Source: a virus
Length of the DNA: 62,494 nucleotides
IMG/VR virus record: IMGVR_UViG_3300009151_000076
Coordinates: 1-62,494 of that record
Reading direction: 5' to 3' (one strand)
Position numbers and translations under genes: made by a program. Below are positions 2,696 through 16,874 of this stretch, in pieces; positions within the stretch are counted from its first letter, which is position 1, and each line of letters starts with the position of its first letter. Below the pieces are notes generated by a model, which was not told the DNA's origin, did no database searches, and saw only the letters and a program-made list of their open reading frames with translations.

Positions 2696-3094
2696 TTAGG
2701 TCTTCTTGCGACCTATGTTGTACTTTGTCACCAACTCCCACTCGTTCTTCTCTTTGTACGGAAGTATCTTTATCTGGCTCAGCGAGGTCTTAGGCTCATT
2801 ACACATGTCCGTATCAACTATCTTTATTAGATCCCACTCTGCCAACAGATGTACTATCGTATTACGCCGTCCGATGTCCTCTTCACTGGTATTTGTTGGC
2901 TTTCCGTCCAAGGCAAATAGCTCTTTGAAGTGAACTATGTAGTACTTTCCCTGCTTGTGGAGGATGTGACAAGACTGATACAGCTTCTTCTCTTTACGAG
3001 AAGCCACGCCAATTCGAGTAAGCGTCTCCTTGATCTTTAAGAAGTCCTCTTCTTCGCCGATCTTCACTTCCACAAGTGTTTCGAGTATTGACAT
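2696..3094 (-). CDS. regA: RegA translational repressor
   Basis: RegA binds ribosome-binding sites of early phage mRNAs and represses their translation. 132 residues against 122 in T4. The diagnostic segment is clear: ETLTRIGVASRKEK, LYQSCHILHKQGKYYIVHF (T4 has LYQSCHILQKQGKYYIVHF) and a C-terminal KYNIGR. GAGG stands five bases before the start. It follows gp62 exactly as in T4 (45-44-62-regA). The first eight or so residues extend the T4 N-terminus. Confidence 0.96.
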   Translation of the reverse strand: MSILETLVEVKIGEEEDFLKIKETLTRIGVASRKEKKLYQSCHILHKQGKYYIVHFKELFALDGKPTNTSEEDIGRRNTIVHLLAEWDLIKIVDTDMCNEPKTSLSQIKILPYKEKNEWELVTKYNIGRKKT

Positions 3095-3136: not shown

Positions 3137-3511
3137 TTAGAACTCTTTAGAGACCTGAAGCTCTTTCTTGATCCTCTTTAGTTGATCCTCGGACAAGATG
3201 GCCAGTGCTGACTTGGCCTTATCCCTACTGTAGCTAAAGAACTCTCTAACGGCCTCTATGTCGTCATCTTTGTCTTTTTTTGCCCACTTAGAGAACCGTT
3301 TACCCTTTCTAATTGACTTTAAAAAGTAGTCATATTGAAGCTTATTATCTAAGTTACTGCGTACGTTCATCTCTTGGGCGTATAGTAGTGTTTCTGGAAA
3401 GTATGAGAGTGCCTTATTTATTAGCCACGGCTTATATTCTTTCTGGTTGTCCTCGGTGATTATACCCTTCTTATCGAAGTTGATATCGTTGACGATGTCA
3501 AATGGGTTCAT
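3137..3511 (-). CDS. 62: Clamp loader small subunit gp62
   Basis: gp62 is the single small subunit of the gp44/62 clamp loader that opens the gp45 ring. Here it is 124 residues, clearly shorter than T4 gp62 (187). Identification rests on position (44-62-regA order, four-base overlap with gp44) and on its charged helical character; direct sequence similarity to T4 is weak, as is usual for this gene. It has little ribosome-site signal, so coupling to gp44 is likely. Confidence 0.8.
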   Translation of the reverse strand: MNPFDIVNDINFDKKGIITEDNQKEYKPWLINKALSYFPETLLYAQEMNVRSNLDNKLQYDYFLKSIRKGKRFSKWAKKDKDDDIEAVREFFSYSRDKAKSALAILSEDQLKRIKKELQVSKEF

Positions 3512-4449
3512 TTCTTAAACTCACACTCCATCATTATCTCTGTAAGACAGGCCATCAGGTTGATCTCGGGATCAGCCGCGAACGCTGCCTGATACTGATA
3601 CTTACCGATGATGATTACTGCAGGCGGAACGCCGCGCGGTGTTAAGAAGTTGACGGCTGTATCATAGATCTTTCTAAAGACAGTACCTTGGTCGTTGTCG
3701 ATGTTCTCGCCTACCCACTTACGAATTGCAGTAAAGTTCTTGTCGGCCAGCAAGCTAACAAGCTCGTCGAGTGTGGCCTGTCCAAAGTTCTGAAGCAGTC
3801 CAGAGTCAATAGCGCCTGTAGCAGAGTAGCGCTGTAGCTCGTTTAGTACACGACGCCAGTCAGGGAAGTGCTTCTTGATGACCTCGGCAACGACCGCCTT
3901 ATCGAAGGTAACGTTCTCGGTCGTTAGGATATTCTCTACACGCTTGAAGAACTGACCGGCTAACTTAGCCATGTCAGACTTACTGATCTTAAAGTCTACA
4001 ACGGAACACCGAGAGTGAAGCGGTTCAATGATCCTGTTTTTGAAATTACACGTGAGGATAAAGCCACAGTTCCTTGAGAACTCTTCCATGAAGTTACGTA
4101 GAGCAGGCTGAGTCGAGTTTGCATTGAGATAGTCAGCCTCGTCGAGGATGACATACTTTCTGCCTCCGCTAAGTGATACAGAGGACGCGAAGTTGAGGAT
4201 GTCATTTCTGAGTGTGTCGATGTTGCCATTCATAGATCCGTTAATAATAATGTAGTCACAGCCTAGTTGCTCGAGCATAGCCCGAGCAACCGTTGTCTTG
4301 CCGACGCCAGCACTACCAGCAAGAATGAGGTTAGGGATATTACCCTGATCCACAAACTGCTGGAAAGTAGCCTTAAGTTCGGCCGGAAGGATAGTATCGG
4401 CGATAGTCTTAGGGCGATATTTCTCGACCCATAGAAAATCTTCTCTCAT
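3508..4449 (-). CDS. 44: Clamp loader ATPase gp44
   Basis: 313 residues (T4 gp44 is 319). An AAA+ ATPase that loads the gp45 sliding clamp. Visible motifs: N-terminal FLWVEKYRPKTI, Walker A GSAGVGKT (about 45-52), Walker B VILDEADYL, and the arginine-finger SRC motif in LHSRCSVVDF. A helical collar domain fills the C-terminal third. AGGA lies seven bases before the start. Immediately downstream is gp62, upstream gp45. Confidence 0.97.
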   Translation of the reverse strand: MREDFLWVEKYRPKTIADTILPAELKATFQQFVDQGNIPNLILAGSAGVGKTTVARAMLEQLGCDYIIINGSMNGNIDTLRNDILNFASSVSLSGGRKYVILDEADYLNANSTQPALRNFMEEFSRNCGFILTCNFKNRIIEPLHSRCSVVDFKISKSDMAKLAGQFFKRVENILTTENVTFDKAVVAEVIKKHFPDWRRVLNELQRYSATGAIDSGLLQNFGQATLDELVSLLADKNFTAIRKWVGENIDNDQGTVFRKIYDTAVNFLTPRGVPPAVIIIGKYQYQAAFAADPEINLMACLTEIMMECEFKK

Positions 4450-4461
4450 CTAAAATTCCTA

Positions 4462-5145
4462 TCAGTTAAATGTTGATGATGATTCGTTAGCAATCCAATA
4501 CTCAAGCTCTGGGGCCTTAAAGTGAGCAAACCCCTTCGTAGAGAGGTCGACCTTGTACTCATTAGTGATCGTCTTAGACAGAACGCCAAAGTACTCTGGC
4601 TTAAACACTGCGTTAAAGGTACGATCTGTTGTACCGAGCGATACGCTATAAGTATCACCTAATGCGTTCGACATGTCAACTGCCTTGATCGTGAGGTTAG
4701 TGCCGTCACCGCTGACTGAGATCTCAGACAGGTTAAGAATACCTAGAGCGCGTTCGATCTCTTTAATGATCTCTACACTAAGGGTAAACTTAATCTCTCC
4801 CTCTGGAAAGTTAGGGTCTTTTGTAATAGGCATAGGGATCGTCGACTCTTCAGCGATAGTGTAGTTAGCGTTCTTATTATTAGAACTATCTTGAATAGTA
4901 ATAAAACGATCGTGTACGCTGATAGTTGGTTCGTTAAATAGCGACATAGTATTCAAGAAGCGACTTAGACTATAGACTGCAAACCTCTTGGTAAAGTTAA
5001 CAGGAACCTTAGCAGTAGCAAAGATGTTCTTGAGTGGAGACACCGTAGTGATGGTGTCTCCCTCTTTGAACAACATGGACGGATTGATTAAAGAAAAACT
5101 CTTTAGTACATTAACCGTCTTCGTATCAAACTTCACGTTATCCAT
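4462..5145 (-). CDS. 45: Sliding clamp gp45
   Basis: 227 residues (T4 gp45 is 228). Trimeric DNA polymerase processivity clamp; in T4 it also activates late transcription by contacting gp55 and gp33. The protein shows the expected alternating beta pattern (LSVEIIKEIERALGILNL, ITVSGDG-type turns) and lies in the canonical 45-44-62-regA order. The C-terminus ends WIANESSSTFN. gp55, its late-transcription partner, is at 17886-18446. Confidence 0.95.
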   Translation of the reverse strand: MDNVKFDTKTVNVLKSFSLINPSMLFKEGDTITTVSPLKNIFATAKVPVNFTKRFAVYSLSRFLNTMSLFNEPTISVHDRFITIQDSSNNKNANYTIAEESTIPMPITKDPNFPEGEIKFTLSVEIIKEIERALGILNLSEISVSGDGTNLTIKAVDMSNALGDTYSVSLGTTDRTFNAVFKPEYFGVLSKTITNEYKVDLSTKGFAHFKAPELEYWIANESSSTFN

Positions 5146-5160
5146 AATATATTGTACTCC

Positions 5161-6012
5161 TTACTTCTTTTTCTTCTTCAAGGCTTCAGGATCGGCCGTA
5201 GCAGAGGCCCCGATCTGTGCTAGATCGGCGAGCGATCCACCAAAGATATACGAGCCAACGTGCTGTAGCTTCATCCATGGGCAGAACCACGTCGCGAGTC
5301 CGATCTCTTGAACCTTCTGACAGAACCAGTAGTCCTCAGAGAGATAGCGCTTCGACTTAGGATCGATCTCAGCTTGGAAGAACTGCATGATCTCGCGCGA
5401 GCCGTCAAACGCCTCTGTGCGAACGTGGTCAGGGCGATAGCTGTACTGGGGATAAGCCTCGACAAACTTCTTACAAGAGTCCTTAGTGATCATCATAAAG
5501 CCGGTACCGATCTCAAGGACCTCACATGGCTCGCCGATGGCGATCGAGCCGGTATTCTGCTTAGGGTTGAACACGTAGTCGCCGACGTACTTGTCGAGGT
5601 TGCCTGGATCCTCGTCTGCAAGACCCTTATCAACCGCGAGCTTGATCTTCTCCCAGCTGATGCACTTCTTAGGGTACGGCCCGCCGATGATATTGTACTT
5701 GTCTGGCTCTTGCGCCTGAAGCGCCATGAGTGCAATGACGTCGTGTGGGTTGAACCCGATGTCCGAGTCGATGAACATAAGGTGCTCTGCCTCAGAGCGC
5801 ATGAACTCATCGACGCAGTAGTTACGCGCGCGAGTGATCAGCGACTCGTTGAAGAGGAAGTAGAGTTGAAGTGGGATACCATAGTTTGTGCAGAGCGCCG
5901 AGAGGTCGGCGATCGACTTCGTAAACATACCTGCACAGGCGCCCCCGTACATAGGTGTGGCGAGGAACAGCTTACGCTTACGAAGGTCCTCGATCGGAAT
6001 ATTAATTTCCAT
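5161..6012 (-). CDS. GT-A-type glycosyltransferase
   Basis: 283 residues. The N-terminus (FLATPMYGGACAGMF) and the DxD-like FIDSDIGF at about residue 79-86 mark a nucleotide-sugar-binding GT2-like fold; a later EDYWFCQKV resembles the acceptor-side Glu-Asp motif of GT2 enzymes. The tail ends in a run of six Lys. AGGAG precedes the start, which overlaps the upstream stop (TAATG). It stands between the replication genes and the DNA-modification block. Substrate unknown: modified DNA or a virion protein are both possible. I recall similar proteins next to gp45 in marine T4-like phages. Confidence 0.75.
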   Translation of the reverse strand: MEINIPIEDLRKRKLFLATPMYGGACAGMFTKSIADLSALCTNYGIPLQLYFLFNESLITRARNYCVDEFMRSEAEHLMFIDSDIGFNPHDVIALMALQAQEPDKYNIIGGPYPKKCISWEKIKLAVDKGLADEDPGNLDKYVGDYVFNPKQNTGSIAIGEPCEVLEIGTGFMMITKDSCKKFVEAYPQYSYRPDHVRTEAFDGSREIMQFFQAEIDPKSKRYLSEDYWFCQKVQEIGLATWFCPWMKLQHVGSYIFGGSLADLAQIGASATADPEALKKKKK

Positions 6013-6482
6013 TATTTAGTCTCCTTGTCATGTACATGCAATTGTATAATAGCATAGTGAATCACTTTCATTAGATCTTTTCTCCAGTCGGCAGGAGAAC
6101 CCTTCTTACCATAACGCTGGGCATACTTCATGACGTTGCCCATACAGAAGCCTGTACCGTGGCCAGAATCAATAATAAACTCTGTGGCTTGAAACTTATT
6201 CTGCGAGTAATGCTCGCCGTACGTATTATTAATATACGCTAAAACCTCGCTGATGTACATACTTTCATTGTACTTATATTCAATATTTTTAGATGCGTCT
6301 ACCTTTGTTATATTAAAAGCCATGTTGATATCTGTCTCTACGTATCCTTCTTTAGGTCCAGTAGAATACATATTAGGCCCTGTAGGTCCGTTAGCACCTA
6401 CAGATCCAAACATCGGCATGTCAAGCGTATTAATATCATCGGCCGTTAGCGCACCTATAGCACCATCTTTAAAATAATCCAT
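6012..6482 (-). CDS. DUF3310-like protein with collagen-like N-terminal stretch
   Basis: 156 residues from an ATG with GGAGG five bases upstream; a TTG ten codons earlier is less likely. The C-terminal half matches the DUF3310 pattern (putative nucleotide kinase): FCMGNVMKYAQRYGKKG then a DLMKVIHYAI helix. The N-terminal part is unusual, with a short collagen-like stretch (GANGPTGPN) and many Asp/Asn. DUF3310 proteins are small helical phage proteins of uncertain chemistry. Placed between a methyltransferase and a glycosyltransferase, a role in nucleotide supply is reasonable but inferred. Confidence 0.65.
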   Translation of the reverse strand: MDYFKDGAIGALTADDINTLDMPMFGSVGANGPTGPNMYSTGPKEGYVETDINMAFNITKVDASKNIEYKYNESMYISEVLAYINNTYGEHYSQNKFQATEFIIDSGHGTGFCMGNVMKYAQRYGKKGSPADWRKDLMKVIHYAIIQLHVHDKETK

Positions 6483-6495
6483 CCCACCCTCCATA

Positions 6496-7686
6496 TTAAA
6501 AGAAACTCTCAAGACTCATGGCTGCTGAATTATACTCGTGCGTCTGAGATAAATTACTCTGGTATATGTAGTCAGTATCGAGCTCTTCTAGCTCGCCGTT
6601 AATCCACTTTTTAATCTCGCCGGCCATATCGGCCGCCGTTTGGACTGGTACATTCTGACATATATGATTGACGTTCTTCTTAGGATCTATAAGTTCAAAG
6701 TTATCAGGCAGTCCCATGATCGTCATGGCCTCTCTATAGTTTATGTATCTGTCTTCTATAGGATGTGTTAAACTCGTAGGGTAGTGACCTACAAAAGCTC
6801 CAATATAATCTTTAGGAACAATGGTCCCCCTCCTCATAATAGATAAACCTCTTGATAGCTTATCGGCTTTGTACTCGCACTTCTTAACTTGTTTTTCAAA
6901 TCCATTGATCTTCATCCACTCTGCCACTTCTAGATAGTTGATACCGCGCTTTTCAATATAGGCTTGCGTATCATTATCGTGTGTTCCCGAGGCTTTCATC
7001 AAAGCAGCAAACTCTCTATGAGTTAGACCACCGTGAATATGTTCAAGCACGTACTTATAATATGGATCTTGAGATGGTATTTTAGAGTTAATGGTCTCTC
7101 TCTGAGTATTACCTAGGGCACCTAAGATTACATCTTCGATCTTTTTATGTGGGCGATTGAAGTACGATAGCAGAGGTGTTTTATCGCCTTTCCAGAAGAA
7201 GTAAAAAGATCTATTACGCACCTGTGGACCACCATGAAGTATGGTCTTGGTACGATACACGGTCATGGTGTACCCATTTTCTTTCCCGATCTGTCGCAGC
7301 TGATTACGAACTTTATCACCGATCTTACCAGCAAATCCTGGAGCGTTCTCACCCCAAAGTACTTTGGGCTGCATCTCTTCGAGCACAAATTTTGTGGTAT
7401 CAATCATCCACTTGTTATTCTGATTGTCGTCGCCGTATCCGTGTGACAGCTGAGACAGCCCAGCACATGGACAAACGGATCCAATAACATCGACTTTATG
7501 ATCTGGTCTATGACCTTTGTCGAGGACATAGTATGGAACTTCATTGTTGTAGTGATTAACGATGTGCTGATCATTCTGCCAAAAAGCTTCATAGGACATC
7601 AGGTAGTCTGGTCTAGATCCAAAAGCTTGCTCTTGACCGATCGTCTCGCCTCCAATTAAAGGTACGATAGTTGCGTGTTTAATCAT
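6496..7686 (-). CDS. C5-cytosine DNA methyltransferase (phage Dcm-like)
   Basis: 396 residues. Class I SAM-dependent methyltransferase with C5-MTase motifs in order: motif I VPLIGGETIG (8-17), motif IV PCAGLSQ (73-79, catalytic C74), motif VI ENA (113-115, usually ENV), motif VIII QVRNR (155-159), motif IX YREAMTIMGLPDNF and motif X QNVPVQTAADM. The region between VIII and IX is the target-recognition part. The family resembles a Dcm-like group found in marine phages. It coexists with a dCMP hydroxymethylase (11441-12100): if dCTP were fully replaced by hydroxymethyl-dCTP this enzyme would have no free C5 to methylate in phage DNA, so it may act on host DNA, on residual cytosines, or in reverse. 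Confidence 0.85.
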   Translation of the reverse strand: MIKHATIVPLIGGETIGQEQAFGSRPDYLMSYEAFWQNDQHIVNHYNNEVPYYVLDKGHRPDHKVDVIGSVCPCAGLSQLSHGYGDDNQNNKWMIDTTKFVLEEMQPKVLWGENAPGFAGKIGDKVRNQLRQIGKENGYTMTVYRTKTILHGGPQVRNRSFYFFWKGDKTPLLSYFNRPHKKIEDVILGALGNTQRETINSKIPSQDPYYKYVLEHIHGGLTHREFAALMKASGTHDNDTQAYIEKRGINYLEVAEWMKINGFEKQVKKCEYKADKLSRGLSIMRRGTIVPKDYIGAFVGHYPTSLTHPIEDRYINYREAMTIMGLPDNFELIDPKKNVNHICQNVPVQTAADMAGEIKKWINGELEELDTDYIYQSNLSQTHEYNSAAMSLESFF

Positions 7687-7695
7687 TTTATATCC

Positions 7696-9105
7696 TTAAA
7701 AGAACGTTGATAGATCTGGAATAGAAGCTTTAAAGTCGCTTGCTACTCTTGCGCGCGATCCCTCGCCTTTAAATACATTAACTGTCTCTAATTTTATTTC
7801 TGAAAATCCAAGTGGGATAGGGTGATCTTTAAGAATATTATCGGCGTATTTCGCCAACTCTCTATTATTATAGACATTATATAATACTTCAAGATCAGAG
7901 TCAAATTTATTATAGTCTTTACCGGCCTTTAATATACCGTCGAACATCGCCGGCAGTACGATCTTAGAATCAAACTCGGCGCTGACGAAGTTTAAACCGG
8001 CCTCTTGATACTGTTTCTGCTTGATGGGGTTACCGGCGATATCTAAGATAGTATCGACGGTCTCATCAAGATTTTCACGATCGCTCCAGACTGCTAGGTT
8101 GTCGACGGAGTCAAAGCTCTTACCATCGTCGGTAAAATTATTTCTTCCATAGTCAACGTCGAATACAGGTATGGTCCCAAGCCCAATCATCTCGATCTGC
8201 GTATACTCCATACGATCGCCGTAGTTATTTTTATCTTTTAGCAAGCGATAGAACGAGGCGCCGAACATAGACTCTGCCATGATACGCATACCTTCGTTAT
8301 ACTTGTAAGGACCCATCGTTACTGTTTTAGTAGGGTCTTGAAGAACTTTAGGTGGGTACACGCAGTACGTATAGAACTCACACAGAGGATGATCTAAGAT
8401 ATCTACTCGCGCACCTATCGACTTCTCAATTCCAATAATCAAAGTATCAAAGCTTGAGTCTTTCTGACGAAAGTGTGGTGTCATGTCAAGGATGCGACGC
8501 GGATCTTTCATGGTTGTCCAACGACCCATATAAGTTAGTCTCTTCTTCTTATCAGACTCATACTTCTCGCCGGTTTTCTGTAGCTCAGATATATCAGTCC
8601 ATAACTTAAATCGACGTGTACGCTCACCAAGAATTTTGCTCGGGAATAACTTAGAGAAACCGGTAGAGAAGAACGTTTTTGTAGAGAAGTTCATAACAAC
8701 ATCGCACCAGTTTAAGATCAAGAACAGTATAGGGATTCGATCTATATTGTTCTTGCTGATCTCGTGCATCATCCCGACTATGATAGGCTTATCAAGCTTC
8801 TTTACAAAATTATTATAGAAACTCATTATGGTATTAGACTCGTGCTTGATCGATGGGTACGAGTTTAATATTACTATATCATAGTTACTATTGATATGAT
8901 CGGCGTGATTTTTAAAATCTTGAGGTATCATTCCGATATAGTTACTCGTATCGCCATGAAACTTTGCACGATGAAATTTTCTCTCATCTACGTGATAAGA
9001 GTCACATACGTGGCCATTTTGTTTAGCCCAGTTTGTCATCTCAACGCCTCCGCGCTGAACGCCACACCCGTCTAGTCCTTTGCCGTAGATGATCGCTATC
9101 TTCAT
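7696..9105 (-). CDS. T4 AGT-like DNA alpha-glucosyltransferase
   Basis: 469 residues, longer than T4 AGT (400). AGT transfers glucose from UDP-glucose to 5-hydroxymethylcytosine in DNA; GT-B fold. Similarity to T4 AGT is visible at the N-terminus (IAIIYGKGLDGCGV against ICIFMARGLEGCGV), in IVILNSYPS against ILIINSVPA, and in the donor-binding C-terminal segment YTQIEMIGLGTIPVF against YTHLELGACGTIPVF. An extra C-terminal tail of about 60 residues ends IPDLSTFF. It overlaps the cytidylyltransferase gene by four bases. With the gp42 homologue in the same block, a glycosylated hydroxymethylcytosine genome is the simplest reading; the sugar and its carrier are not proven. Confidence 0.82.
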   Translation of the reverse strand: MKIAIIYGKGLDGCGVQRGGVEMTNWAKQNGHVCDSYHVDERKFHRAKFHGDTSNYIGMIPQDFKNHADHINSNYDIVILNSYPSIKHESNTIMSFYNNFVKKLDKPIIVGMMHEISKNNIDRIPILFLILNWCDVVMNFSTKTFFSTGFSKLFPSKILGERTRRFKLWTDISELQKTGEKYESDKKKRLTYMGRWTTMKDPRRILDMTPHFRQKDSSFDTLIIGIEKSIGARVDILDHPLCEFYTYCVYPPKVLQDPTKTVTMGPYKYNEGMRIMAESMFGASFYRLLKDKNNYGDRMEYTQIEMIGLGTIPVFDVDYGRNNFTDDGKSFDSVDNLAVWSDRENLDETVDTILDIAGNPIKQKQYQEAGLNFVSAEFDSKIVLPAMFDGILKAGKDYNKFDSDLEVLYNVYNNRELAKYADNILKDHPIPLGFSEIKLETVNVFKGEGSRARVASDFKASIPDLSTFF

Positions 9106-9548
9106 TTCTTACCCTTTGCAACTCTATCACGTAGCTCGGTCGTCGAGAACGAGTGCCTACGCTTGTTGTAGTGTATAGGACACAGTCCCTTACCCGTATG
9201 ATCTTTACCCTCGTACTCCTCACCAACAACCCTTATGTCAGGGTTGATCGTAAGAACCAAGTCTACGATGTCTTGCTCTTTCTCGAATGGGATGATCTCA
9301 TCGACATATTTACACGCAGAGACTTGAAGATATCTTTCTATGACCGTCTGTATCGGTTTATTCTTTGAGTCAGGACGATCCACAGTAGGATCTACGAGCA
9401 ACCCAACGATGAGGTAGTCACACATCTCTTTTGCTTCTTGAAGCATAACGACGTGACCACTGTGAAATAAGTCAAAAGTACTACAAGTAAACCCGATGAT
9501 AGGCTTTCTTCCTAGTTTCTCTCTTAACTCAACTCGATCTAAAAACAT
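9102..9548 (-). CDS. TagD-like cytidylyltransferase
   Basis: 148 residues. Nucleotidyltransferase fold of the glycerol-3-phosphate cytidylyltransferase family: GFTCSTFDLFHSGH with the HxGH site at 29-32, DYLIVGLLVD, and FSTTELRDRV in the position of the RTEGISTT nucleotide-binding motif (the Arg of that motif is His here: RRHSFSTT). Such enzymes make CDP-alcohols such as CDP-glycerol from CTP and a phospho-alcohol. It is coupled by overlap to the AGT-like gene and the HAD-kinase gene, so the three likely serve one pathway. The true substrate cannot be read from the sequence. Confidence 0.82.
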   Translation of the reverse strand: MFLDRVELREKLGRKPIIGFTCSTFDLFHSGHVVMLQEAKEMCDYLIVGLLVDPTVDRPDSKNKPIQTVIERYLQVSACKYVDEIIPFEKEQDIVDLVLTINPDIRVVGEEYEGKDHTGKGLCPIHYNKRRHSFSTTELRDRVAKGKK

Positions 9549-10639
9549 GGCGATACATCTTCTCTAAACAACTTGTCAATTATATCACGTACTAAATCTT
9601 TTTCAAACTTATTCTTTTTATACTTCAGCATGCGGATATAGTGAATCATCTCACATAGCTTACCATATATGATCTCATCTAAAGTTAGTAGGCTCTCGAA
9701 CTCTTCCAGTAACTTAGGTTTATTTATGCGTGATTTAGAATTTCCAAACACGCTCTCATAATCAAAGTGAAGTGACTGATATACTTTACCGATATCAAGT
9801 AGATATGACGTATAGAGACCTGCCGGTGTGTTAGGATCAATGAAGTAAACTTCGCCGTATCTATTTACTATTGCGTTCTCAAAAGTCATATCCCCATGAC
9901 AGAAGCTAGCAGATTTTGTCATGTACTCGGATACAAAATCACTTGTTATGATCTTAAGTATCTCTTGCTCGTGCGGTATGGCGTTAATAGAAAGGTGAGT
10001 TTTAATCCTATCCACCATCGTGTTCCAATCACTGCTGATTGCCGGTAGATCGCCTATCAAATTTATAGTCTCCTTAACAGTGATAAGGTCGTCTCCGGTA
10101 CAGCAATTATTGAGAGACATGCCTTCGATGTACTCCATATCCAGCGTATCGTTATAGTTAGACATGACTCTAGGTACGCGGATATTGGGTTGTTTATTTG
10201 CTATTGTCTTATACCAAAGGGCTTGCTCGCGAGCATTCGGTGCGTTCTTGATAACACGGTTATTAAAGATCTCGATCTCTGCACCGGACCCTCCGATGAT
10301 GCGCTCGAACCTAGCGCTTGAAAACTCATCAGGACGCATGGCTTTGTCGTCGATGTACGCGAGCGCAAGTGGCTTACCAAACAAAAGCTCGTGATACTTT
10401 ACGTTGTTCTTCTTAAGCCAAATACGAAGTGCTGGACCCCTCGAAGCCTCTGCAAGCGCAGGATCGTTGTCGCACGAGAGCATACCTCTGGCCGTGTGTA
10501 AGATTATCTTCCACCCAGAGTCATACATCTCGTTTATCTTTGCGATAACGTCCGTGTGCGGTATCGCGTTTGCATAGTCGCGATCTATGTGTGTCGAGAT
10601 CGTGTCGTCGACATCCACCACTATAGACTTCTCAAACAT
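9539..10639 (-). CDS. HAD phosphatase / APH-choline-kinase-like fusion protein
   Basis: 366 residues, two domains. Residues 1-105 are a HAD hydrolase: motif I DVDDT (9-13), motif II HTAR (48-51), motif III GKP with K89, motif IV IDD (96-98); the order resembles small capsule-sugar phosphatases. Residues 115-366 are an aminoglycoside/choline kinase fold: VIK (K131), hinge MEYIEGMSL, catalytic HGDMTFEN (H248, D250, N255) and metal-site IDPN (D268). A kinase and a phosphatase on one chain, next to a TagD-like enzyme, suggest preparation of a phospho-alcohol or sugar phosphate for CDP activation. The gene overlaps both neighbours. Fusion partner choice is unusual to me. Confidence 0.8.
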   Translation of the reverse strand: MFEKSIVVDVDDTISTHIDRDYANAIPHTDVIAKINEMYDSGWKIILHTARGMLSCDNDPALAEASRGPALRIWLKKNNVKYHELLFGKPLALAYIDDKAMRPDEFSSARFERIIGGSGAEIEIFNNRVIKNAPNAREQALWYKTIANKQPNIRVPRVMSNYNDTLDMEYIEGMSLNNCCTGDDLITVKETINLIGDLPAISSDWNTMVDRIKTHLSINAIPHEQEILKIITSDFVSEYMTKSASFCHGDMTFENAIVNRYGEVYFIDPNTPAGLYTSYLLDIGKVYQSLHFDYESVFGNSKSRINKPKLLEEFESLLTLDEIIYGKLCEMIHYIRMLKYKKNKFEKDLVRDIIDKLFREDVSPCF

Positions 10640-10994
10640 TCAAATATTCCTCACATAACAAAAGCATCTCATCTTCATAGGCTTTATCGTTTAGCTTTCT
10701 ATTTAGCCCAGAAGGGTGTGGAAGTATAAAGTGCTCGACATTTATTTTTTCTAAAGCTTTAGACACAAAGTTACCGAGTGCTATTACTTTCTCATGCCCA
10801 ACGGTACAAGCGGCCAAGATATCATAGTCGATATCTTTGTGTGAGTACTTACCCTGATTTGGTATGCAGTTTGTAAATGCAAAGATATCTAACCCAAGCC
10901 GATCTGCCCACGCTGGAAGTCTCCTCCAGGTGGTGCTTCGATCAGCTTTAAGATTTGATGGATTAATCCCTACTATCAAGACGCGCTGAGACAC
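10632..10994 (-). CDS. Short uracil-DNA-glycosylase-superfamily protein
   Basis: 120 residues from a GTG inside the end of the deaminase gene; the open frame continues upstream but that part is only antiphase deaminase sequence, so the GTG is preferred. UDG-fold marks: VGINPS (8-13, motif A) and HPSGLNR (93-99, motif B). The protein is much shorter than typical UDGs (about 190-230) and lacks an obvious Fe-S cysteine set. It could excise uracil or an unwanted modified base, or be a binding-only relative. Coupled by overlap to deaminase and HAD-kinase genes. Start and enzymatic competence are uncertain. Confidence 0.6.
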   Translation of the reverse strand: MSQRVLIVGINPSNLKADRSTTWRRLPAWADRLGLDIFAFTNCIPNQGKYSHKDIDYDILAACTVGHEKVIALGNFVSKALEKINVEHFILPHPSGLNRKLNDKAYEDEMLLLCEEYLNV

Positions 10995-11469
10995 CTGCTT
11001 CTTGGAAGATAGCCGAGGTAACTTTAAACGAGTCTCTCCACTTGTCGTTGATCTCTTCTGGGCAGCACATGAAGACTCGCTTGATGCCGACTTGGACAAC
11101 ACCTTTGGCGCACTCCGAGCAGACTGGTAGTCCATAGACGTAGAGGTCAGCATCTTTTAAACTCACTCCATTGAGCGTTGCATTGTATATACAGTTCATC
11201 TCTGCGTGAACTACAAACTTATACTTCTCTTCACGATTGATAAGACGCTCATATGAGTCCTTAATACCGCGAGGGAAACCGTTGTATCCCTGCGAAAGGA
11301 TCTGGCCATCGCGACCTACAGCCACAGCTCCGACTTTGGTGCTTGGGTCTTTAGACCAACTAGCAATGTGCTTAGCTAGATCTAGATACTTGTTCATCCA
11401 GCTCTCAGAAAAGCTGTCTGGCTTACGAGGAAGCCACGTATCAGAGAACGAGGTCAAAGTGTCGCTCAT
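10963..11469 (-). CDS. cd: dCMP deaminase
   Basis: 168 residues from the first ATG; a second ATG at 11397 (MNKYLDLAKH) has a slightly better ribosome site and matches the usual family start. Converts dCMP to dUMP for thymidylate synthesis. Zinc-site motifs: HAEMN (catalytic HAE) and PVCSECAK (PxxC variant of PCxxC), plus KDPSTKVGAVAV typical of deoxycytidylate deaminases. In T4 this enzyme partners thymidylate synthase and gp42. It overlaps the gp42 homologue upstream by 29 bases if the long start is used. Confidence 0.93.
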   Translation of the reverse strand: MSDTLTSFSDTWLPRKPDSFSESWMNKYLDLAKHIASWSKDPSTKVGAVAVGRDGQILSQGYNGFPRGIKDSYERLINREEKYKFVVHAEMNCIYNATLNGVSLKDADLYVYGLPVCSECAKGVVQVGIKRVFMCCPEEINDKWRDSFKVTSAIFQEAGVSARLDSRD

Positions 11470-12100
11470 ATACGTGAAGGGATCCGACGTTCCAGTGAAT
11501 ATCTCCCATGTCTAATCCTAGATCGCTCGACAGTTCGTTCAATACATTCTCTTGCCAAGCGAAGTCGTTCTTATAGCCATACACGACGTCGTTTGATCTC
11601 ATCTGAACGACGGCGTCAAGCTTGTTATTGCGAATAAGATACTGCACAGAGTTAGTGCACATGAAGTCTGACCTGCCATTGAGGTTATAGTCATACTGCA
11701 TAGAAGGTCGCGTATATATCATTATAGCTCGACGCGAGAACGGATTGTTCTTTAACTCATTTAAACAGCTTGAGTATTGATAGCCGTTATCTTTACTGTA
11801 TATACACCAGCCATAGTTCGAGTTAACATAGCCATCGGAGTCTGCAACTTGCTTCCAGATAGCCGGCGGTCCGCCTCGGATATCATTTACATTCAAAGAC
11901 TGTAGCTTATACCACTCGATCTCGCGCATCACGTAGTCATAGTTGACGGTGCCAAAGATCGCGGGCTTATCTGCAATGAACGACGCGTTGATGATCTCGA
12001 GCATCTTAACGCCTGTCTTATCGATGACGTACATCTCACGCTCTTTAAGAAGTTTAAATGACTCACGAACATTATCGATATCATTACGGGTGTGTAGCAT
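11441..12100 (-). CDS. 42: dCMP hydroxymethylase (T4 gp42 homologue)
   Basis: 219 residues from an ATG overlapping the upstream stop (TGATG). Converts dCMP and methylene-tetrahydrofolate to 5-hydroxymethyl-dCMP. Near-collinear with T4 gp42: VNSNYGW (92-98), RRAIMIYTRPSMQ, catalytic Cys in DFMCTN (C148), MRSNDVVYG, and KNDFAWQ with D179. T4 has C148 and D179 at the same numbers; Asp rather than Asn there favours dCMP over dUMP. The C-terminus stops just after GSLHVYERHF, about 26-30 residues short of T4, so the tail that closes the active site is missing or altered. Thymidylate synthase is the alternative but fits less well. Confidence 0.93.
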   Translation of the reverse strand: MLHTRNDIDNVRESFKLLKEREMYVIDKTGVKMLEIINASFIADKPAIFGTVNYDYVMREIEWYKLQSLNVNDIRGGPPAIWKQVADSDGYVNSNYGWCIYSKDNGYQYSSCLNELKNNPFSRRAIMIYTRPSMQYDYNLNGRSDFMCTNSVQYLIRNNKLDAVVQMRSNDVVYGYKNDFAWQENVLNELSSDLGLDMGDIHWNVGSLHVYERHFDLVL

Positions 12101-12438
12101 CACTTGATCTTTCTATTTAAGAAGTCACGATCGGGCTGCTGACCATCAACTTTGCCGCGCGAGTATGCGACATAGAACGAAGAGTAGTTTATGAGGTCTT
12201 TGGCCGAGTCTTCAAGCGACTCATAGTTAGGTTTGTACGTTGGATCGTTCTGCATGGCCTCCATGACTGAACGCATGCGAAGCAACTTTGCGTGCATGAT
12301 CTCGAGGATGGTCAAGCACCCCGTTGGGTAGTAGTCGGCCTGTCGTATGGTTGAGTTTGGGTTCTGATAATCTCGAGACTTCTTACTTTGAAGATCAATG
12401 CACTCTTGAAGCACTTTAATTGACTCACGATCTGTCAT
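12100..12438 (-). CDS. DUF1599/Nmad1-like protein (nucleotide modification associated)
   Basis: 112 residues from an ATG with GGAG six bases upstream; a Met 16 codons earlier (12486) is also possible. All-helical, with SRDYQNP, then LEIMHAKLLRMRSVME, then ESLEDSAKDLINYSSF; this is the pattern of DUF1599 (nucleotide modification associated domain 1), which I match from memory. The E/D-rich last helix resembles MazG-type all-alpha pyrophosphatases, so hydrolysis of dCTP or a modified dNTP is a possible role. Its overlap with gp42 (one base) fits a job in modified-cytosine supply. Confidence 0.6.
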   Translation of the reverse strand: MTDRESIKVLQECIDLQSKKSRDYQNPNSTIRQADYYPTGCLTILEIMHAKLLRMRSVMEAMQNDPTYKPNYESLEDSAKDLINYSSFYVAYSRGKVDGQQPDRDFLNRKIK

Positions 12439-12982
12439 ACTGCTCTCCAGCTTGTTTCCAATAGTCTTCGATAACTGCTTTTTCATGTACCACCTTTAAT
12501 TGTTTTAATATATCGTATTGTTGTACTATTGTCAAGGCGCTATAAAGCTCAATTATCTCGTACTCATCACCATCTTTACCGGCAGACGCCTCTTTCCACC
12601 CAAATCGATATCCGCATAACTTTTCTGTCTCACTGTGGATCTTATTTTCAAGCTCCGTCTCGTTCCCTGGCTCTACGAGTAGAAGTCGAACAAACACGTC
12701 ATTTGGCGCAATGTTGTTCTGTCGAATATACTTACAGACGTTGTGGCCACCGCCGCGAATAGAATAAGTACGAGAGTGGATACTCTTGCTCTTACCGGTA
12801 TACCCGATCAGTGGATGGATGATAGAGTCACCTATCTCGACGATGTCTTTGTTGAGTGCTATCTGATATATCCCGACCTCTCCCTCTCCCTCGACGCGTT
12901 CGTTATATAGTCTTGTTTTTGTAGATGGGATAGAAACTACAGGGCGCCAATCGGTTTTAATTGTAATCAAGTTATCTATCAT
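12425..12982 (-). CDS. GIY-YIG-like nuclease
   Basis: 185 residues. The N-terminal part carries a GIYQI strand (37-41) and, after an insert, LIGYTGKSK in place of the usual YIGxT, followed by an Arg-containing helix (SIHSRTYSIRGG) and a Glu in ELENKIHSETEKL. These fit the GIY-YIG order GIY, YIG, R, E. The second half of the motif is altered (IGY rather than YIG), so activity may differ. T4 carries GIY-YIG enzymes as homing nucleases (Seg) and endonuclease II; here the gene sits inside the modification block and is coupled to its neighbours, which argues against a free-standing homing gene. Confidence 0.55.
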   Translation of the reverse strand: MIDNLITIKTDWRPVVSIPSTKTRLYNERVEGEGEVGIYQIALNKDIVEIGDSIIHPLIGYTGKSKSIHSRTYSIRGGGHNVCKYIRQNNIAPNDVFVRLLLVEPGNETELENKIHSETEKLCGYRFGWKEASAGKDGDEYEIIELYSALTIVQQYDILKQLKVVHEKAVIEDYWKQAGEQYDRS

Positions 12983-13539
12983 ACGGCCTCACGATAAAAA
13001 GCGTGGCCGTCGATTGCGGCCGATTTGTGGTTATAATAAAAATCTTTGCTAAAGCCAGACATGGTGCAGTAGCGCCTAAAGTTCTTGGCCTCACACACCA
13101 AGAAAAATAGAACGTTATACGCCGAGTCTGTCTGGTGTAATTTACCGGATATAAAGTAGTCTATAATATCTTTGTTCTTTAGCATCGTCTCGATGCTCGG
13201 TGGCTTGAATGTAAAGTACTTCTTTGACCATCGCTTACACTCAAAAGTCTTTCCATTCTCTGGATCAAACACGTCGTACGCATATGAGAATCGATCTGTA
13301 TGATCGAACTCGAGAGGGTTCATCTGCATTCCCGTTACTTGTGCGAGTGCGTACTCAAGGACCATCTGCTCTACGCTGTGAAACACGTTCTCATAGCTTC
13401 TTCCGTTATAGTTCCTGAAAGGACAGTTGTATATCGACTCGGCTATAGAATTGAAGCGATCCATAAGCTCCGATGTTTTCTCTATCTTTATAGGCTTAGG
13501 TGTAAGAATAACATCGGCGTAGTCTTTTAAAGTTTTCAT
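12979..13539 (-). CDS. PD-(D/E)XK-like nuclease, tentative
   Basis: 186 residues. A stretch SYAYDVFDPENGKTFECKRW places an Asp followed about 12 residues later by ECK, the spacing of a PD-(D/E)XK metal site; an upstream helix has a possible conserved Glu (HSVEQMVLEYAL). The C-terminus has aromatic-rich strands and a final DGHAFYREAV. The N-terminus MKTLKDYADVI faintly resembles a capsid-targeting leader, but the gene sits among early genes. Start GTA-TGA-type overlap couples it to the GIY-YIG-like gene. Alternative: a restriction-like effector acting on unmodified DNA. Confidence 0.45.
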   Translation of the reverse strand: MKTLKDYADVILTPKPIKIEKTSELMDRFNSIAESIYNCPFRNYNGRSYENVFHSVEQMVLEYALAQVTGMQMNPLEFDHTDRFSYAYDVFDPENGKTFECKRWSKKYFTFKPPSIETMLKNKDIIDYFISGKLHQTDSAYNVLFFLVCEAKNFRRYCTMSGFSKDFYYNHKSAAIDGHAFYREAV

Positions 13540-13940
13540 TCTTTATATACTCTGCCAAAAAGCCCTACGTTATTATTGTGAGATGGCGCCTCCCACCCTT
13601 CAGGCTTGATTAAGTCAGGAAGTCCAAGTGGGTTAGGGCGTGACTGCTTGACACCAACTTTCTTACTCATGTTAGCCTTAAGCACTTTATCCCAAGCCAT
13701 CTCGATGTCGACGTCCATTGCGTCGAGGGTGCCGATGGCGACTACGCAGAGATCGATCAGCGCGTCGACAGCCTCATCGGCCGTGTCGGCCTCAAGAAGC
13801 TCAGTCATCTCTTCTTCAAGAAACTTATAACGAAACTCAAGCAGCTTTGCCAGCATGTCATCGTCAAAAGTTTCAACTACCTTATGCACTCCATAGTGCT
13901 TGTGCATCTTATAGATATCGTCTACCCAATCTTTACTCAT
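13536..13940 (-). CDS. MazG-like all-alpha NTP pyrophosphatase
   Basis: 134 residues from the ATG at 13940, which has GGAG seven bases upstream; an upstream Met at 13994 lies inside the previous gene. The metal-binding pattern is LEEEMTELLEA followed by DEAVDALIDLCVVAIG (ExxE, then ExxxD), typical of phosphoribosyl-ATP/MazG-like pyrophosphatases. In a phage with dCMP hydroxymethylase it is a plausible functional replacement for T4 gp56, the dCTPase/dUTPase that removes dCTP and feeds dCMP to gp42; gp56 itself belongs to this superfamily. Substrate is inferred from context. Confidence 0.75.
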   Translation of the reverse strand: MSKDWVDDIYKMHKHYGVHKVVETFDDDMLAKLLEFRYKFLEEEMTELLEADTADEAVDALIDLCVVAIGTLDAMDVDIEMAWDKVLKANMSKKVGVKQSRPNPLGLPDLIKPEGWEAPSHNNNVGLFGRVYKE

Positions 13941-14466
13941 GTATCCACTCCGGCGCTTCGCGCTTTTTCCAACTGTGAAGGTTTGCTTTTCCAACTTTAT
14001 AGTAATTTCTATAGTTTATTATGGGGTCTTGACTGATGATATACTTGTCGTCCATACACGACGGCATCTCTGTCCACTCCCAATCTTTTAGATTGAACGG
14101 TGGTGCTTGAAGATCAATTGCGAGCATAGTACAGGCGTGCTTCTTCTCATATCGATACGTGTACTCGTCTAACAAAGCAAACAAGTGATCCGATAGCCAG
14201 GTATAGTTCTCTACGGATTGACGACACCATACTGCAGACGGATGATTAATGTGAGTTGCTTTGTACATCACGTCCTCACGACTGTCAACCAGCATCCAGC
14301 GCTTAATACGCCTTCCGCTTGTTACGTCGATATACTCTACGCCATCAAGTACTCGATGCGCGGTGGACAACAGCTGTGCGGACTCGAGGATCATCTTAAC
14401 GACGTGCTTATCGACCATTGACTGTGCTGCGGTGATTGGATTTTTATCGACATAAAAGATATTAAT
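13933..14466 (-). CDS. Conserved phage protein with probable AUU start codon
   Basis: 177 residues if initiated at ATT (14466-14464), five bases after a perfect AGGAGG. The first ATG (14418) is 48 bases downstream with no ribosome site. The 16 added residues (INIFYVDKNPITAAQS, initiator read as Met) continue smoothly into MVDKHVVKMILESAQL, an N-terminus I recognise from a phage family of unknown function (NIFxxDxxPxxAAQ, DKHVVKM). Later conserved-looking segment: HPSAVWCRQSVENYTWL. No catalytic motif can be assigned. AUU starts limit initiation (as for IF3), so expression may be deliberately low. A sigma70-like promoter is at 14491-14519. First gene of the modification block. Confidence 0.7.
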   Translation of the reverse strand: MNIFYVDKNPITAAQSMVDKHVVKMILESAQLLSTAHRVLDGVEYIDVTSGRRIKRWMLVDSREDVMYKATHINHPSAVWCRQSVENYTWLSDHLFALLDEYTYRYEKKHACTMLAIDLQAPPFNLKDWEWTEMPSCMDDKYIISQDPIINYRNYYKVGKANLHSWKKREAPEWIHE

Positions 14467-14999: not shown

Positions 15000-15168
15000 C
15001 TGCTGGGTCCTTTGTGGTTAGAGTAACTCTCTTACTAGTATCATCGACCTCCCACCATAGAGCCGTACTATCTGTCCATCCCATAGTTTCTAAAAGATCT
15101 TCTGGCAACTCAATAAAAAGCTCACCGTTCTCATCTTCTTTTACAACCGTAAACCAATTTGTTTTCAT
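14986..15168 (-). CDS. AbrB-like small protein
   Basis: 60 residues: an N-terminal strand (WFTVVKEDENGELFIELP) followed by DLLETMGW and a second strand pair, the swapped-hairpin pattern of AbrB/MazE-type DNA-binding proteins. Such proteins are frequent in T4-like phages between gp46 and other genes. Ribosome site AGGA seven bases upstream. Overlaps gp46 (four bases) and the deformylase homologue (14 bases). Function unproven; a small transcription modulator or antitoxin-like protein. Confidence 0.55.
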   Translation of the reverse strand: MKTNWFTVVKEDENGELFIELPEDLLETMGWTDSTALWWEVDDTSKRVTLTTKDPADEIS

Positions 15169-16874
15169 GTTATGATCCTACTAAAGTTTTGTGTTTTTTC
15201 AAACTTAATTGTATTCTCAAACTTGTCACCGATCTGATCTGACTTATGACTAATGATAAAGGTGTTGGTCCCAGCCGTCAGTTGATTTAGTATCTTTAAG
15301 AACTCTTCAATACCCGTAGAGTCAAGTGAACTATCAAATACTTCGTCCATTATGAGAATATTAGTATTAATAGAGTTACGAAGTTTAGCAACAGCTCTCC
15401 AAGTAAACAATATTGCAAGATTAATACGCATCTTCTCACCTTCACTAAAGGAAGCGTAGCTAAACTCATCCCTAAATCTTGACTTGATTGTTTCATTAAA
15501 TTCTTCATCGAGGTTGAACTGCACGACGAACTCGAGCGATGCTAAGTACTTATTGATAAGTTTATTGATTACTGGAATGTACTGCTTAATAATGATTGAC
15601 TTAATACCACCGTCTTTTAATAAAGATGACGCGGCCGTAAGAATAACTTTCTCGTCTTCTAGATCTTTTAAGTTATTTGTAGCTGTAGACAACTGCCCTT
15701 GCATATTAATCAGTACATTTTGATCTACACCAACAGTTTTAGTTTCTATTGATACTATATCTCCCTCTAGCTCGGCGATATAAGAGTTAAGAGATTCTAT
15801 TTTTGTTTTGATGCGATGACATTGAAAGTTCTTGTCATTGATGCTGGCGTGTACCTCTGATATATCAGATATCTTCTTACTTACTTTATTGTATTCTTCT
15901 TGCAGCTGAACCAAACCATCTTTAATATCACCTATCTTTGCCTGCTTAGTATCGATCGCCTCAGCTTTAAAAACAGTATTAATCTGCTGAGTGCATGTAG
16001 GACAGTTATCGTACTCGTGAAAGAACTTAACGTCTTTATTAAGGATGTCCAAGTTGGCTTCAATTCTTTGCTTTAAGGCACCAAGTTGGTTCATCTTCTT
16101 TGATATGGATGGCTCGTCAGCTATGGTATCTTGGAGCTCTTTAATCGATGTGGATATATCTTGGTAATCTTTATTGAGGCTATTAATACTTTGATTAGTT
16201 GTGGTGATGCGATCCATCTTCTCTTTAATCATAAAGTCGTTGGTGTTTTGCACCTGCTTTAAGTGCTCACTTATGATGCTCATCTTCTCGTTGATAAGTT
16301 TTTTCTCACTTTGAGCCTCAATGATTGCGTCTTTATTAATTACTACTTTATCTTTTAAAAGAGCGTTCATCGTAGTAAAGATTTGAAGGTCTAAAAGATC
16401 TTCAATGATCTCACGTCTTTGACCCATGGGAAGCTGCATAAAAGGTTGAAACGTTGCAGACCCAAGAACTACAACTTGAGAAAAAGACTTGTGATTGATC
16501 TTTAATATCTGCTTCTCAAGTATCTCTTGATAGTCTTTCATCTCTGCCGTTTGATTTATAAGGATATCGTTCTGATAAACTTCAAATATATTTGGCTTCA
16601 TACCACGAACAATCTTATAACTGTGTGGATGAATATCAAACTCTACTTCAACCACCGCATCTTTCTTGGTGATAGAGTTAACGAGTTGCGGCTTGTTAAC
16701 TTTTCTAAACGGCTTGCTAAAAAGTGCATACGATAGAGCGTCGAGAACAGTAGACTTTCCTGCACCGTTCTCGCCAACTATAAGTGTCGTGTTGCTCTTA
16801 TTAAGCTCTATCTCAGTAAATACGTTTCCAGTAGATAGAAAGTTTTTCCATCTAATCTTCTTAAAGATTATCAT
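15165..16874 (-). CDS. 46: Recombination nuclease ATPase subunit gp46 (Rad50-like)
   Basis: 569 residues (T4 gp46 is 560). With gp47 it forms the SbcC/Rad50-type exonuclease that resects DNA ends for recombination-dependent replication. Walker A GENGAGKST (34-42), long coiled coil with a zinc hook CPTC near the middle, ABC signature FSEGEKMRIN, Walker B ILIMDEVFDSSLD. Gene 46 follows 47 with a four-base overlap as in T4. Confidence 0.96.
   Translation of the reverse strand: MIIFKKIRWKNFLSTGNVFTEIELNKSNTTLIVGENGAGKSTVLDALSYALFSKPFRKVNKPQLVNSITKKDAVVEVEFDIHPHSYKIVRGMKPNIFEVYQNDILINQTAEMKDYQEILEKQILKINHKSFSQVVVLGSATFQPFMQLPMGQRREIIEDLLDLQIFTTMNALLKDKVVINKDAIIEAQSEKKLINEKMSIISEHLKQVQNTNDFMIKEKMDRITTTNQSINSLNKDYQDISTSIKELQDTIADEPSISKKMNQLGALKQRIEANLDILNKDVKFFHEYDNCPTCTQQINTVFKAEAIDTKQAKIGDIKDGLVQLQEEYNKVSKKISDISEVHASINDKNFQCHRIKTKIESLNSYIAELEGDIVSIETKTVGVDQNVLINMQGQLSTATNNLKDLEDEKVILTAASSLLKDGGIKSIIIKQYIPVINKLINKYLASLEFVVQFNLDEEFNETIKSRFRDEFSYASFSEGEKMRINLAILFTWRAVAKLRNSINTNILIMDEVFDSSLDSTGIEEFLKILNQLTAGTNTFIISHKSDQIGDKFENTIKFEKTQNFSRIIT

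Follow-up and report, generated by a model that had tools for sequence, protein, structure and literature searches.

What role could the active site of a C5-methyltransferase have in DNA whose cytosines would already be hydroxymethylated at C5? This question is raised by a run of genes on the minus strand (positions 5161–14418) of the IMG/VR virus record IMGVR_UViG_3300009151_000076. The window analysed here, 62,494 bases long, is a genome fragment and the whole of that record, and all gene searches of this genome refer to the fragment only. On balance we think it probable that the run serves a T4-like phage as an operon for cytosine hypermodification, in which a sugar activated by the phage itself would be placed on 5-hydroxymethylcytosine (hmC), with a homologue of C5-methyltransferases contributing a further step. 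Its core genes, as predicted from the sequence, are as follows.

6496–7686, minus strand: C5-methyltransferase homologue (PF00145, 64.2 bits, cut-off 22)
7696–9105, minus strand: AGT-family DNA glycosyltransferase, 469 residues (PF11440, 55.4 bits, cut-off 25)
9102–9548, minus strand: sugar-phosphate nucleotidyltransferase of the cytidylyltransferase fold (PF01467, 61.2 bits)
9539–10639, minus strand: HAD phosphatase (about residues 1–115) fused to a kinase of the APH/methylthioribose-kinase fold (phrog_1238)
10963–11469, minus strand: dCMP deaminase (PF00383, 6e-19; phrog_174, 2.9e-42)
11441–12103, minus strand: dCMP 5-hydroxymethylase of the gp42 type, 220 residues (T4 enzyme 1b49, E=2.3e-83)
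13536–13994, minus strand: MazG-superfamily nucleotide pyrophosphohydrolase, a candidate enzyme of the dCTP pool (PF01503, 1e-8; phrog_671)

The listing of open reading frames (ORFs) places 14 of them in the run. An initial annotation of this DNA had put fourteen one-strand genes at 5161–14466; the number stands, and the last start lies at 14418, 48 bases short of that edge. The overlaps of 1–30 bases that it gave are right in kind, the actual range being 1–62 bases with two exceptions: the methyltransferase and AGT homologues are 9 bases apart, and the UDG-like and deaminase ORFs, as called, share 191 bases. Its gp42-type hydroxymethylase, AGT-like glucosyltransferase, C5-methyltransferase homologue, MazG-like protein, dCMP deaminase and HAD-kinase fusion are all borne out by the matches above, as is its general view of hmC plus a glycosyltransferase in a scheme that goes beyond T4.

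By family, the gene at 11441–12103 clearly belongs to the true T4-type dCMP hydroxymethylases, and formation of hydroxymethyl-dCMP is predicted. Its C149 and D180 correspond to Cys148 and Asp179 of T4, the residues singled out by the initial annotation, the Asp being the one that replaces the Asn of thymidylate synthases (TS). Both are kept in 49 of 49 aligned rows, and in a wider survey the Asp was present in 173/173 sequences and the Cys in 172/173, the remaining row being cut at that place. The HAD and kinase relatives described below belong to the type of pathway that leads to glycosylated 5-hydroxycytosine in RB69-type phages, in which case gp42 would be a 5-hydroxy-dCMP synthase. We consider this very unlikely: the protein is 58% identical to that of phage T2 over 99%, against 26% to that of Mosigvirus mobillu over 90%, and among PDB entries it matches the T4 enzyme best, with the 9iq-series TS entries a long way behind. 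Assignment to the 5-hydroxy-dCMP synthase branch was rejected on this far greater closeness to T2/T4.

Over its whole length the C5-methyltransferase homologue (METHYLTRANSFERASE) can be aligned with ordinary C5 methyltransferases (hhalign against eight comparison enzymes, probability 98.8, E=4e-17), and its predicted model (pLDDT 90.1) superimposes on M.HhaI (2uyc; Z 24.6, root-mean-square deviation (rmsd) 3.1, 289 residues aligned), tied with the rows for DNMT1 and M.HaeIII. On the NCBIfam model dcm (TIGR00675) it scores 29.9 bits, below the cut-off of 100.65. Nine phage records match it, namely those of S-TIM cyanophages, Bacillus phage G, Pseudoalteromonas phage XG4 and one fecal contig, and IMG/VR holds at least 572 matching stretches among 599 pattern matches. 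In a tree it groups with 17 cassette members, cyanophage S-TIM54 and XG4 in a single clade (100/99), to which phage G is adjacent; the tool gave a long-branch warning.

Residues were tallied in 102 non-identical sequences of at least 330 residues, drawn from 134 full-length ones and including those of the window, XG4, S-TIM54 and phage G. Catalytic motifs IV, VI and VIII are present in the window protein (P73 C74; E113 N114; Q155 R157 R159); Cys74, Glu113, Asn114, Arg157 and Arg159 are invariant (102/102), and Gln155 is kept in 101/102. At the cofactor site, motif I has lost its usual F-x-G-x-G-G form and reads [VI]PL[IV]GG in 101 of the 102 homologues (VPLIGG in the window, phage G being the likely exception), whereas the comparison enzymes have F in 7/8 and G-G in 8/8; the motif was mapped with hhalign and by the structural range, model residues 1–365 falling on HhaI 11–325. 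The cofactor-selecting position, Asn304 in M.HhaI, is occupied by Gln344 in 102/102 homologues; it varies among the eight comparison enzymes (N, M, L). The catalytic, motif I and Gln344 pattern holds in 43 further sequences of a remote branch, except for two that are gapped at motif I. The motif-II acid is present in 50/102 homologues and in 6/43 of the remote branch, and the residue after it is Ala, Pro or Gly in 90/102, as against a bulky one in 8/8 comparison enzymes; the alignment is less sure there, and the motif-II acid was dropped as firm evidence because two alignments disagree. Ala75, at what we take to be the position of M.HhaI Gln82, was also dropped as a mark of an enlarged pocket, since ordinary enzymes vary there as well (S, N, Q, P).

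Because the cofactor site is altered, ordinary methylation dependent on S-adenosylmethionine (SAM), yielding plain 5-methylcytosine (5mC), appears unlikely, and the homologue, with its rebuilt-looking cofactor pocket, may carry out new chemistry on hmC. An adenine-bearing cofactor may still be compatible with the data. Re-tooling of this fold is real: according to PMC12783734, phages have converted a C5 methyltransferase into CmoX, which carries Arg350 at the M.HhaI Asn304 position. The window protein has the same fold as CmoX (8yf3; Z 23.5, rmsd 3.7, 286 aligned), and it could in principle be a CmoX-type carboxymethyltransferase using Cx-SAM. This is extremely unlikely, as the defining Arg350 is Gln344 in 102/102, the SPPC motif reads VCPC in the window, the motif-I Phe is Val or Ile in 101/102, and no CmoA was found in the 62-kb fragment, which is only part of the genome. 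Membership of the CmoX family was rejected on the missing key Arg.

The genes that lie between gp42 and the methyltransferase homologue point to the activation of a sugar. The HAD domain is 41–42% identical to 9iqw (profile E=4.4e-19), by its PDB title the D-arabinose 1,5-diphosphate phosphatase AfhF of phage HY126; on NCBIfam TIGR01689 it reaches 71.8 bits, below the cut-off of 162. By profile, the kinase domain is nearest to methylthioribose kinase (2olc, 1.3e-5), an enzyme that phosphorylates C1 of a pentose, and in the predicted model (pLDDT 90.7) it matches 2pyw (Z 17.2, rmsd 4.5, 274 aligned), on a par with several more kinases of the APH fold. The fusion is predicted to make and then trim a sugar 1,n-bisphosphate. 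The nucleotidyltransferase, whose HxGH motif is conserved in 90% or more of the 40 rows aligned, had been described in the initial annotation as a TagD-like cytidylyltransferase. The fold agrees, but the model for RfaE domain II, heptose-1-phosphate adenylyltransferase (TIGR02199, 76.9 bits, cut-off 181.5), outscores that for TagD, glycerol-3-phosphate cytidylyltransferase (TIGR01518, 56.2 bits, cut-off 165.4), both falling below cut-off. It would thus sit between RfaE domain II and TagD, its scores being nearer to those of a sugar-1-phosphate nucleotidyltransferase than to TagD; its best PDB match by sequence is ethanolamine-phosphate cytidylyltransferase (9.1e-24), and its substrate class is a prediction. 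The ADP-heptose route combines a kinase, a bisphosphate phosphatase and a nucleotidyltransferase of the RfaE-type fold, and the trio in the window resembles that route. The AGT homologue (phrog_2888, 1.6e-89; T4 AGT 1xv5, E=4.8e-21) has its nearest relative among isolates in gp306 of phage G (41% identity over 98%).

Most likely, the sugar genes would make a nucleoside diphosphate (NDP) sugar for hmC, probably a pentose, in a domain-shuffled form of the RB69-type supply. For phages of the RB69 type and for Thanatos phages, it has been put forward that phage genes supply the sugar nucleotides (PMC6024577, PMC12838424, PMC13390438), activated arabinose in the case of the RB69 type (PMC6024577, PMC13390438). 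The initial annotation held that the HAD-kinase fusion and the cytidylyltransferase have no place in the T4 pathway. This is true of T4 only, because XG4 and phage G carry related functions and a sugar supply has been proposed for the RB69 type; both genes fit a phage sugar-nucleotide supply of the RB69 or Thanatos type. The methyltransferase homologue may make the new hypermodification that it suggested; plain methylation is unlikely, given the changes at its cofactor site.

The same gene set, in the same order, is found again in many IMG/VR contigs, which is more than chance and answers the survey of co-occurrence that the initial annotation had proposed. IMG/VR was sampled by pattern scans, the best 80 hits being taken per scan; many contigs are near-copies or cut, and survey genes without Pfam-type support were labelled with our own small profiles. 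The methyltransferase-anchored set is the best 80 of at least 572 relatives (78 used), and the nucleotidyltransferase-anchored set the best 80 of 98 loci (79 used). Anchored counts omit the window's twin contigs L005, L093 and L182 and also L070 (methyltransferase-anchored), leaving 79/80, 78/80 and 33/34 in use. The survey of the remote branch comprises 84 loci (L219–L299 and L015–L017, one of them without a methyltransferase label), with L216–L218 and L221 omitted as repeats. Single-sequence scans of IMG/VR with the AGT homologue and the HAD-kinase fusion recovered the twin contig of the window and a single relative that has only HAD, and a megablast search of the block region against phage records, from which close ones may be missing, gave no match.

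In the methyltransferase-anchored set, every locus with at least 4 kb of sequence ahead of the methyltransferase homologue has gp42 in that upstream part (46/46); the nucleotidyltransferase is found by tblastn in three of these 46 loci and the HAD-kinase fusion in two, so that the sugar genes are optional there. Within the remote branch, gp42, the fusion and the nucleotidyltransferase are all upstream of the homologue in the 27 of 27 loci that have at least 5 kb. In 129 of 145 cases, a count that takes in near-copies, no gap separates the methyltransferase homologue from the labelled gene directly upstream, the two abutting or overlapping. Seen from the nucleotidyltransferase, the fusion adjoins it in 57 of 70 loci with room, and the pair has gp42 upstream in 36/39 and the methyltransferase homologue downstream in 38/40 loci with room, the exceptions being L033, L036 and L047.

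These counts bear on a different use of the pair, namely that it activates a polyol or sugar which goes into a surface glycan or decorates the tail, and is not meant for DNA. The nearest NCBIfam model for the HAD domain is indeed named for a capsule biosynthesis phosphatase (the match being under cut-off), in cyanophage S-B43 a TagD homologue is surrounded by genes for sugar dehydratases and epimerases and the annotation shows no gp42 within 10 kb of it, and L036 and L047 carry the pair with neither gp42 nor the methyltransferase homologue. We nevertheless find such a use quite unlikely, given that the pair otherwise stands between gp42 (36/39) and a DNA-modifying homologue (38/40), that a sister clade of the nucleotidyltransferase (13 loci, 52–56% identity, several contigs short) lacks the HAD-kinase fusion, gp42 and the methyltransferase homologue alike (0/13 for each), and that the HAD relative AfhF is, by its PDB title, a phage arabinose enzyme.

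What lies between gp42 and the methyltransferase homologue varies. The 89 loci compared, distinct only by exact methyltransferase DNA and with the window's twin counted once, show 20 combinations of labelled genes in that interval. AGT with the HAD-kinase fusion and the nucleotidyltransferase, as in the window, accounts for 16/89 loci and AGT as the sole labelled cargo for 13/89, AGT being present in only 33/89 in total. A 365-residue family (phrog_14998) occurs alone in 11 of the 89 and with UDP-galactopyranose mutase in 14 (seven of these also with an epimerase), and a relative of myo-inositol-1-phosphate synthase accompanies a 5-hmdU-DNA-kinase-domain protein in four. Further cargo includes another transferase family, combined with the fusion and the nucleotidyltransferase in several forms, a TAGT transferase and others. 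These labels are supported by matches to GLF (5.8e-51), Inos-1-P_synth (1.1e-8), HMUDK_hel (2e-11) and TAGT (2.7e-19); the SDR epimerase was also matched. As read from gene content, the system is modular, with gp42 (usually with the dCMP deaminase) as a fixed front, the methyltransferase homologue as a fixed back and a swappable middle that would name the cargo.

Three of the cargo sets deserve separate mention. A UDP-galactopyranose mutase at L137 (8994–9995) and at 13 further loci stands beside the 365-residue family, which suggests galactofuranosyl-hmC DNA. At L162, L163, L165 and L168, the inositol-phosphate-synthase relative, the kinase-domain protein and a 368-residue family with a GDSHA motif, seen by eye, replace the glycosyltransferase. 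Finally, at L158, L159, L206, L208, L209 and L214 the cargo consists of orf383, a threonine-dehydratase-like protein (phrog_7093) and orf368; L158 and L159 add orf324 and have the methyltransferase homologue, and the other four loci are without it.

The 13 loci with AGT as sole labelled cargo would suit a simpler account, in which host UDP-glucose is used to make T4-style glucosyl-hmC and nothing more elaborate, sites are guarded by the methyltransferase homologue as an ordinary 5mC enzyme, and the HAD-kinase fusion and nucleotidyltransferase serve some other end. Both gp42 and AGT are T4-like, the PF00145 threshold is passed and Asp56 is kept (see below). Even so, this account is unlikely: the usual SAM motif I is lost across the methyltransferase family, the dcm score stays at 29.9 bits against 100.65, the homologue is linked to gp42 although hmC already occupies C5, and the sugar genes are tied to gp42 in 36/39.

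In the operon that we favour, gp42, aided by the dCMP deaminase and the MazG-type pool enzyme, would convert dCMP into hydroxymethyl-dCMP, and hmC would enter the DNA. Starting from a sugar phosphate of the host, most likely a pentose 5-phosphate, the kinase-phosphatase fusion and the nucleotidyltransferase would produce an activated NDP-sugar by 1-phosphorylation, removal of the other phosphate and transfer to a nucleotide, and the AGT-family enzyme would attach this phage-activated sugar, rather than glucose, to hmC. Whichever the sugar, the methyltransferase homologue is a regular companion of hmC synthesis in this clade, and it is therefore expected to act on the base: its Cys would attack C6 of cytosine or hmC in the DNA, using no cofactor or one other than SAM, and the outcome would be something else than methyl transfer. 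The final base would likely be a sugar-hmC, perhaps with one further step. It is possible that the homologue serves as a base-flipping helper for the transferase; chemistry is favoured because the catalytic residues are invariant. Side reactions of this kind are on record for C5 methyltransferases in the test tube: thiols are coupled to 5hmC by an engineered M.SssI, and hydroxymethyl groups have been installed with M.HhaI (PMC7176277). By analogy, we offer a tentative and rather doubtful conjecture, that the viral family might have dropped SAM as a methyl donor and might use the Cys–C6 adduct to act on hmC in DNA. The 5-CH2 substituent would then be eliminated, or exchanged for a nucleophile or a sugar-bearing group, or formaldehyde would be added or removed at chosen sites. 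As part of the same conjecture, the enzyme would be a fixed hub with its cargo swapped, be it a pentose, a sugar of the UDP-galactofuranose type, an inositol phosphate with a hydroxymethyl-DNA kinase, or others.

Several observations weigh against such an operon. Asp56, which matches the adenine-binding Asp69 of CmoX, is kept in 96/102 homologues, and because of this a SAM-like cofactor may still bind; the window protein itself has Glu at the motif-II position (E33), which hhalign places elsewhere. No SIS-family sugar isomerase (PF01380; arabinose-5-phosphate isomerase type) was found in the 62-kb fragment. Among gp42-anchored loci with 5 kb downstream, the methyltransferase homologue is present in 10/23 and missing from 13/23, and many survey loci are near-copies, the counts being those of contigs. 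C5 methylases are also reported from groups of the Tevenvirinae without known hmC genes (PMC8056088), though no more than nine phage records match the window protein. Independence of the extra genes from gp42 and AGT, which the initial annotation had set against its own proposal, is found in part: AGT is confined to 33/89 loci and gp42 often stands without the methyltransferase homologue, but the homologue, where this could be seen, always has gp42 upstream (46/46 and 27/27), and the pair keeps to gp42 and to the homologue in 36/39 and 38/40 loci.

The remaining ORFs of the run are as follows.

5161–6012, minus strand: GT-A-like protein (phrog_1574, by PHROGs)
6012–6512, minus strand: DUF3310 protein, a neighbour (PF11753, 2.5e-10)
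10632–11153, minus strand: small UDG-superfamily-like protein (PF03167, 2.2e-4; 21.7 bits, below the cut-off of 24.3)
12100–12486, minus strand: phrog_18404/1485 protein (PHROGs), near gp42 in many loci
12425–12982, minus strand: orphan with a GIY-YIG-looking pattern, from alignment by eye only
12979–13539, minus strand: orphan with an invariant D...E-x-K-R pattern like that of PD-(D/E)XK nucleases, from alignment by eye only
13933–14418, minus strand: phrog_624 protein (PHROGs), a neighbour, with a sub-threshold pyrimidine-dimer-glycosylase match

The initial annotation had counted the ORF at 5161–6012 as a second GT-A enzyme of the block. It is GT-A-like and stands beside the methyltransferase homologue in 83/87 loci of a survey anchored on the cassette; its family occurs in 63 phage records, mostly of Synechococcus and Sinorhizobium phages, while the methyltransferase homologue is found in the nine records named above. 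The role of a neighbour is thus the likelier one, and the ORF was provisionally set aside from the pathway. The UDG-fold protein of the initial annotation matches weakly; its homologues at the equivalent place have 118–157 residues (one has 187), and the window ORF, called at 173, is probably shorter, with its true start near 11000. No support for Nmad1- or DUF1599-like proteins was found in Pfam, PHROGs or NCBIfam for 12100–12486 or 13933–14418. The orphan at 12425–12982 has no support in Pfam, PHROGs, NCBIfam or the PDB (a PDB search of its family gave one match, E=0.33), and that at 12979–13539 has no match in Pfam or PHROGs; it is possible that these adjoining ORFs (12425–13539), GIY-YIG- and PD-(D/E)XK-like by eye, encode host-DNA-degrading enzymes that spare modified DNA. 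The block lies among T4-like replication genes, with gp45 (4462–5145) and regA (2696–3094) identified by PHROGs, and with what are presumably gp44 (3508–4449), gp62 (3137–3511) and gp46 and gp47 (15165–17962), named by reading and from T4 gene order. Elsewhere in the window, a second tail-tube-like ORF (phrog_45; 20395–20916) has uvsY on one side and the major head gene on the other, the tail tube itself being at 27966–28562.

Literature searches turned up no paper that we recognised as describing the cassette, and its absence from print is not claimed. If the modular reading holds, it predicts DNA bases that have not been seen, namely pentosyl-, galactofuranosyl- and inositol-linked hmC, and XG4, phages of the S-TIM5 type and phage G are named phages in which such bases may occur.

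How, then, does the cassette compare with known systems? With the hmC and alpha-glucosyl-hmC system of T4 it shares gp42 with the equivalents of Cys148 and Asp179, the AGT family, the dCMP deaminase and the T4-like replication neighbours; unlike T4, the window has its own sugar-nucleotide genes and the C5-methyltransferase homologue, with no T4 record among the nine matches of the latter. The pentose-cytosine pathways of RB69, HY126 and Thanatos likewise place an AfhF-family HAD protein and an APH-fold kinase beside a TS-family enzyme. In the window, however, HAD and kinase form a single protein, a nucleotidyltransferase of the RfaE/TagD fold (PF01467) takes the place of an RmlA-like–APH fusion, gp42 is of the hydroxymethyl type, no SIS isomerase was found in the fragment and the C5-methyltransferase homologue is added. 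The latter shares its whole fold and catalytic residues with M.HhaI-type enzymes and differs from them at motif I, at the Asn304 position and probably at motif II. Like the 5-carboxymethylcytosine system of phage S-B43, as portrayed in PMC12783734, it would be a C5-methyltransferase fold re-tooled for DNA hypermodification; unlike CmoX, it has Gln for the key Arg, no CmoA found in the fragment and a tie to gp42.

Bacillus phage G (gp301–gp319) has a C5-methyltransferase homologue, annotated as a cytosine methyltransferase, two AGT homologues, a nucleotidyltransferase, a HAD protein, a kinase-profile match, a dCMP deaminase and a TS homologue that carries Asp as the hydroxymethylases do. The kinase match, gp311, is weak in Pfam (APH, 0.018) but reaches 3.4e-9 with the HAD-kinase profile. 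Phage G is unrelated, however, its nucleotidyltransferase is of the RmlA type and its genes lie on two strands. The locus (L085, 219–235 kb) thus combines both AGT genes, the methyltransferase homologue, sugar-activating genes and the D-type TS homologue. In cyanophage S-TIM54, a protein labelled ThyA (L086, 6114–6956) reads LDMFRYG, with D at the position where thymidylate synthases have Asn, and is a possible dCMP hydroxymethylase; it is encoded near the methyltransferase homologue, on the other strand. Pseudoalteromonas phage XG4, finally, has a row consisting of gp42, a 131-residue HAD protein, a 559-residue NTP-transferase–APH fusion, a 414-residue ORF that belongs to a transferase family of the cassette (9.3e-125 to our own profile), an unlabelled 368-residue ORF and the methyltransferase homologue. 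Its fusion is laid out like ORF53_52c of RB69 (561 residues), as described in PMC6024577, and by its predicted gene content XG4 is a bridge between the window cassette and the RB69-type pathway.

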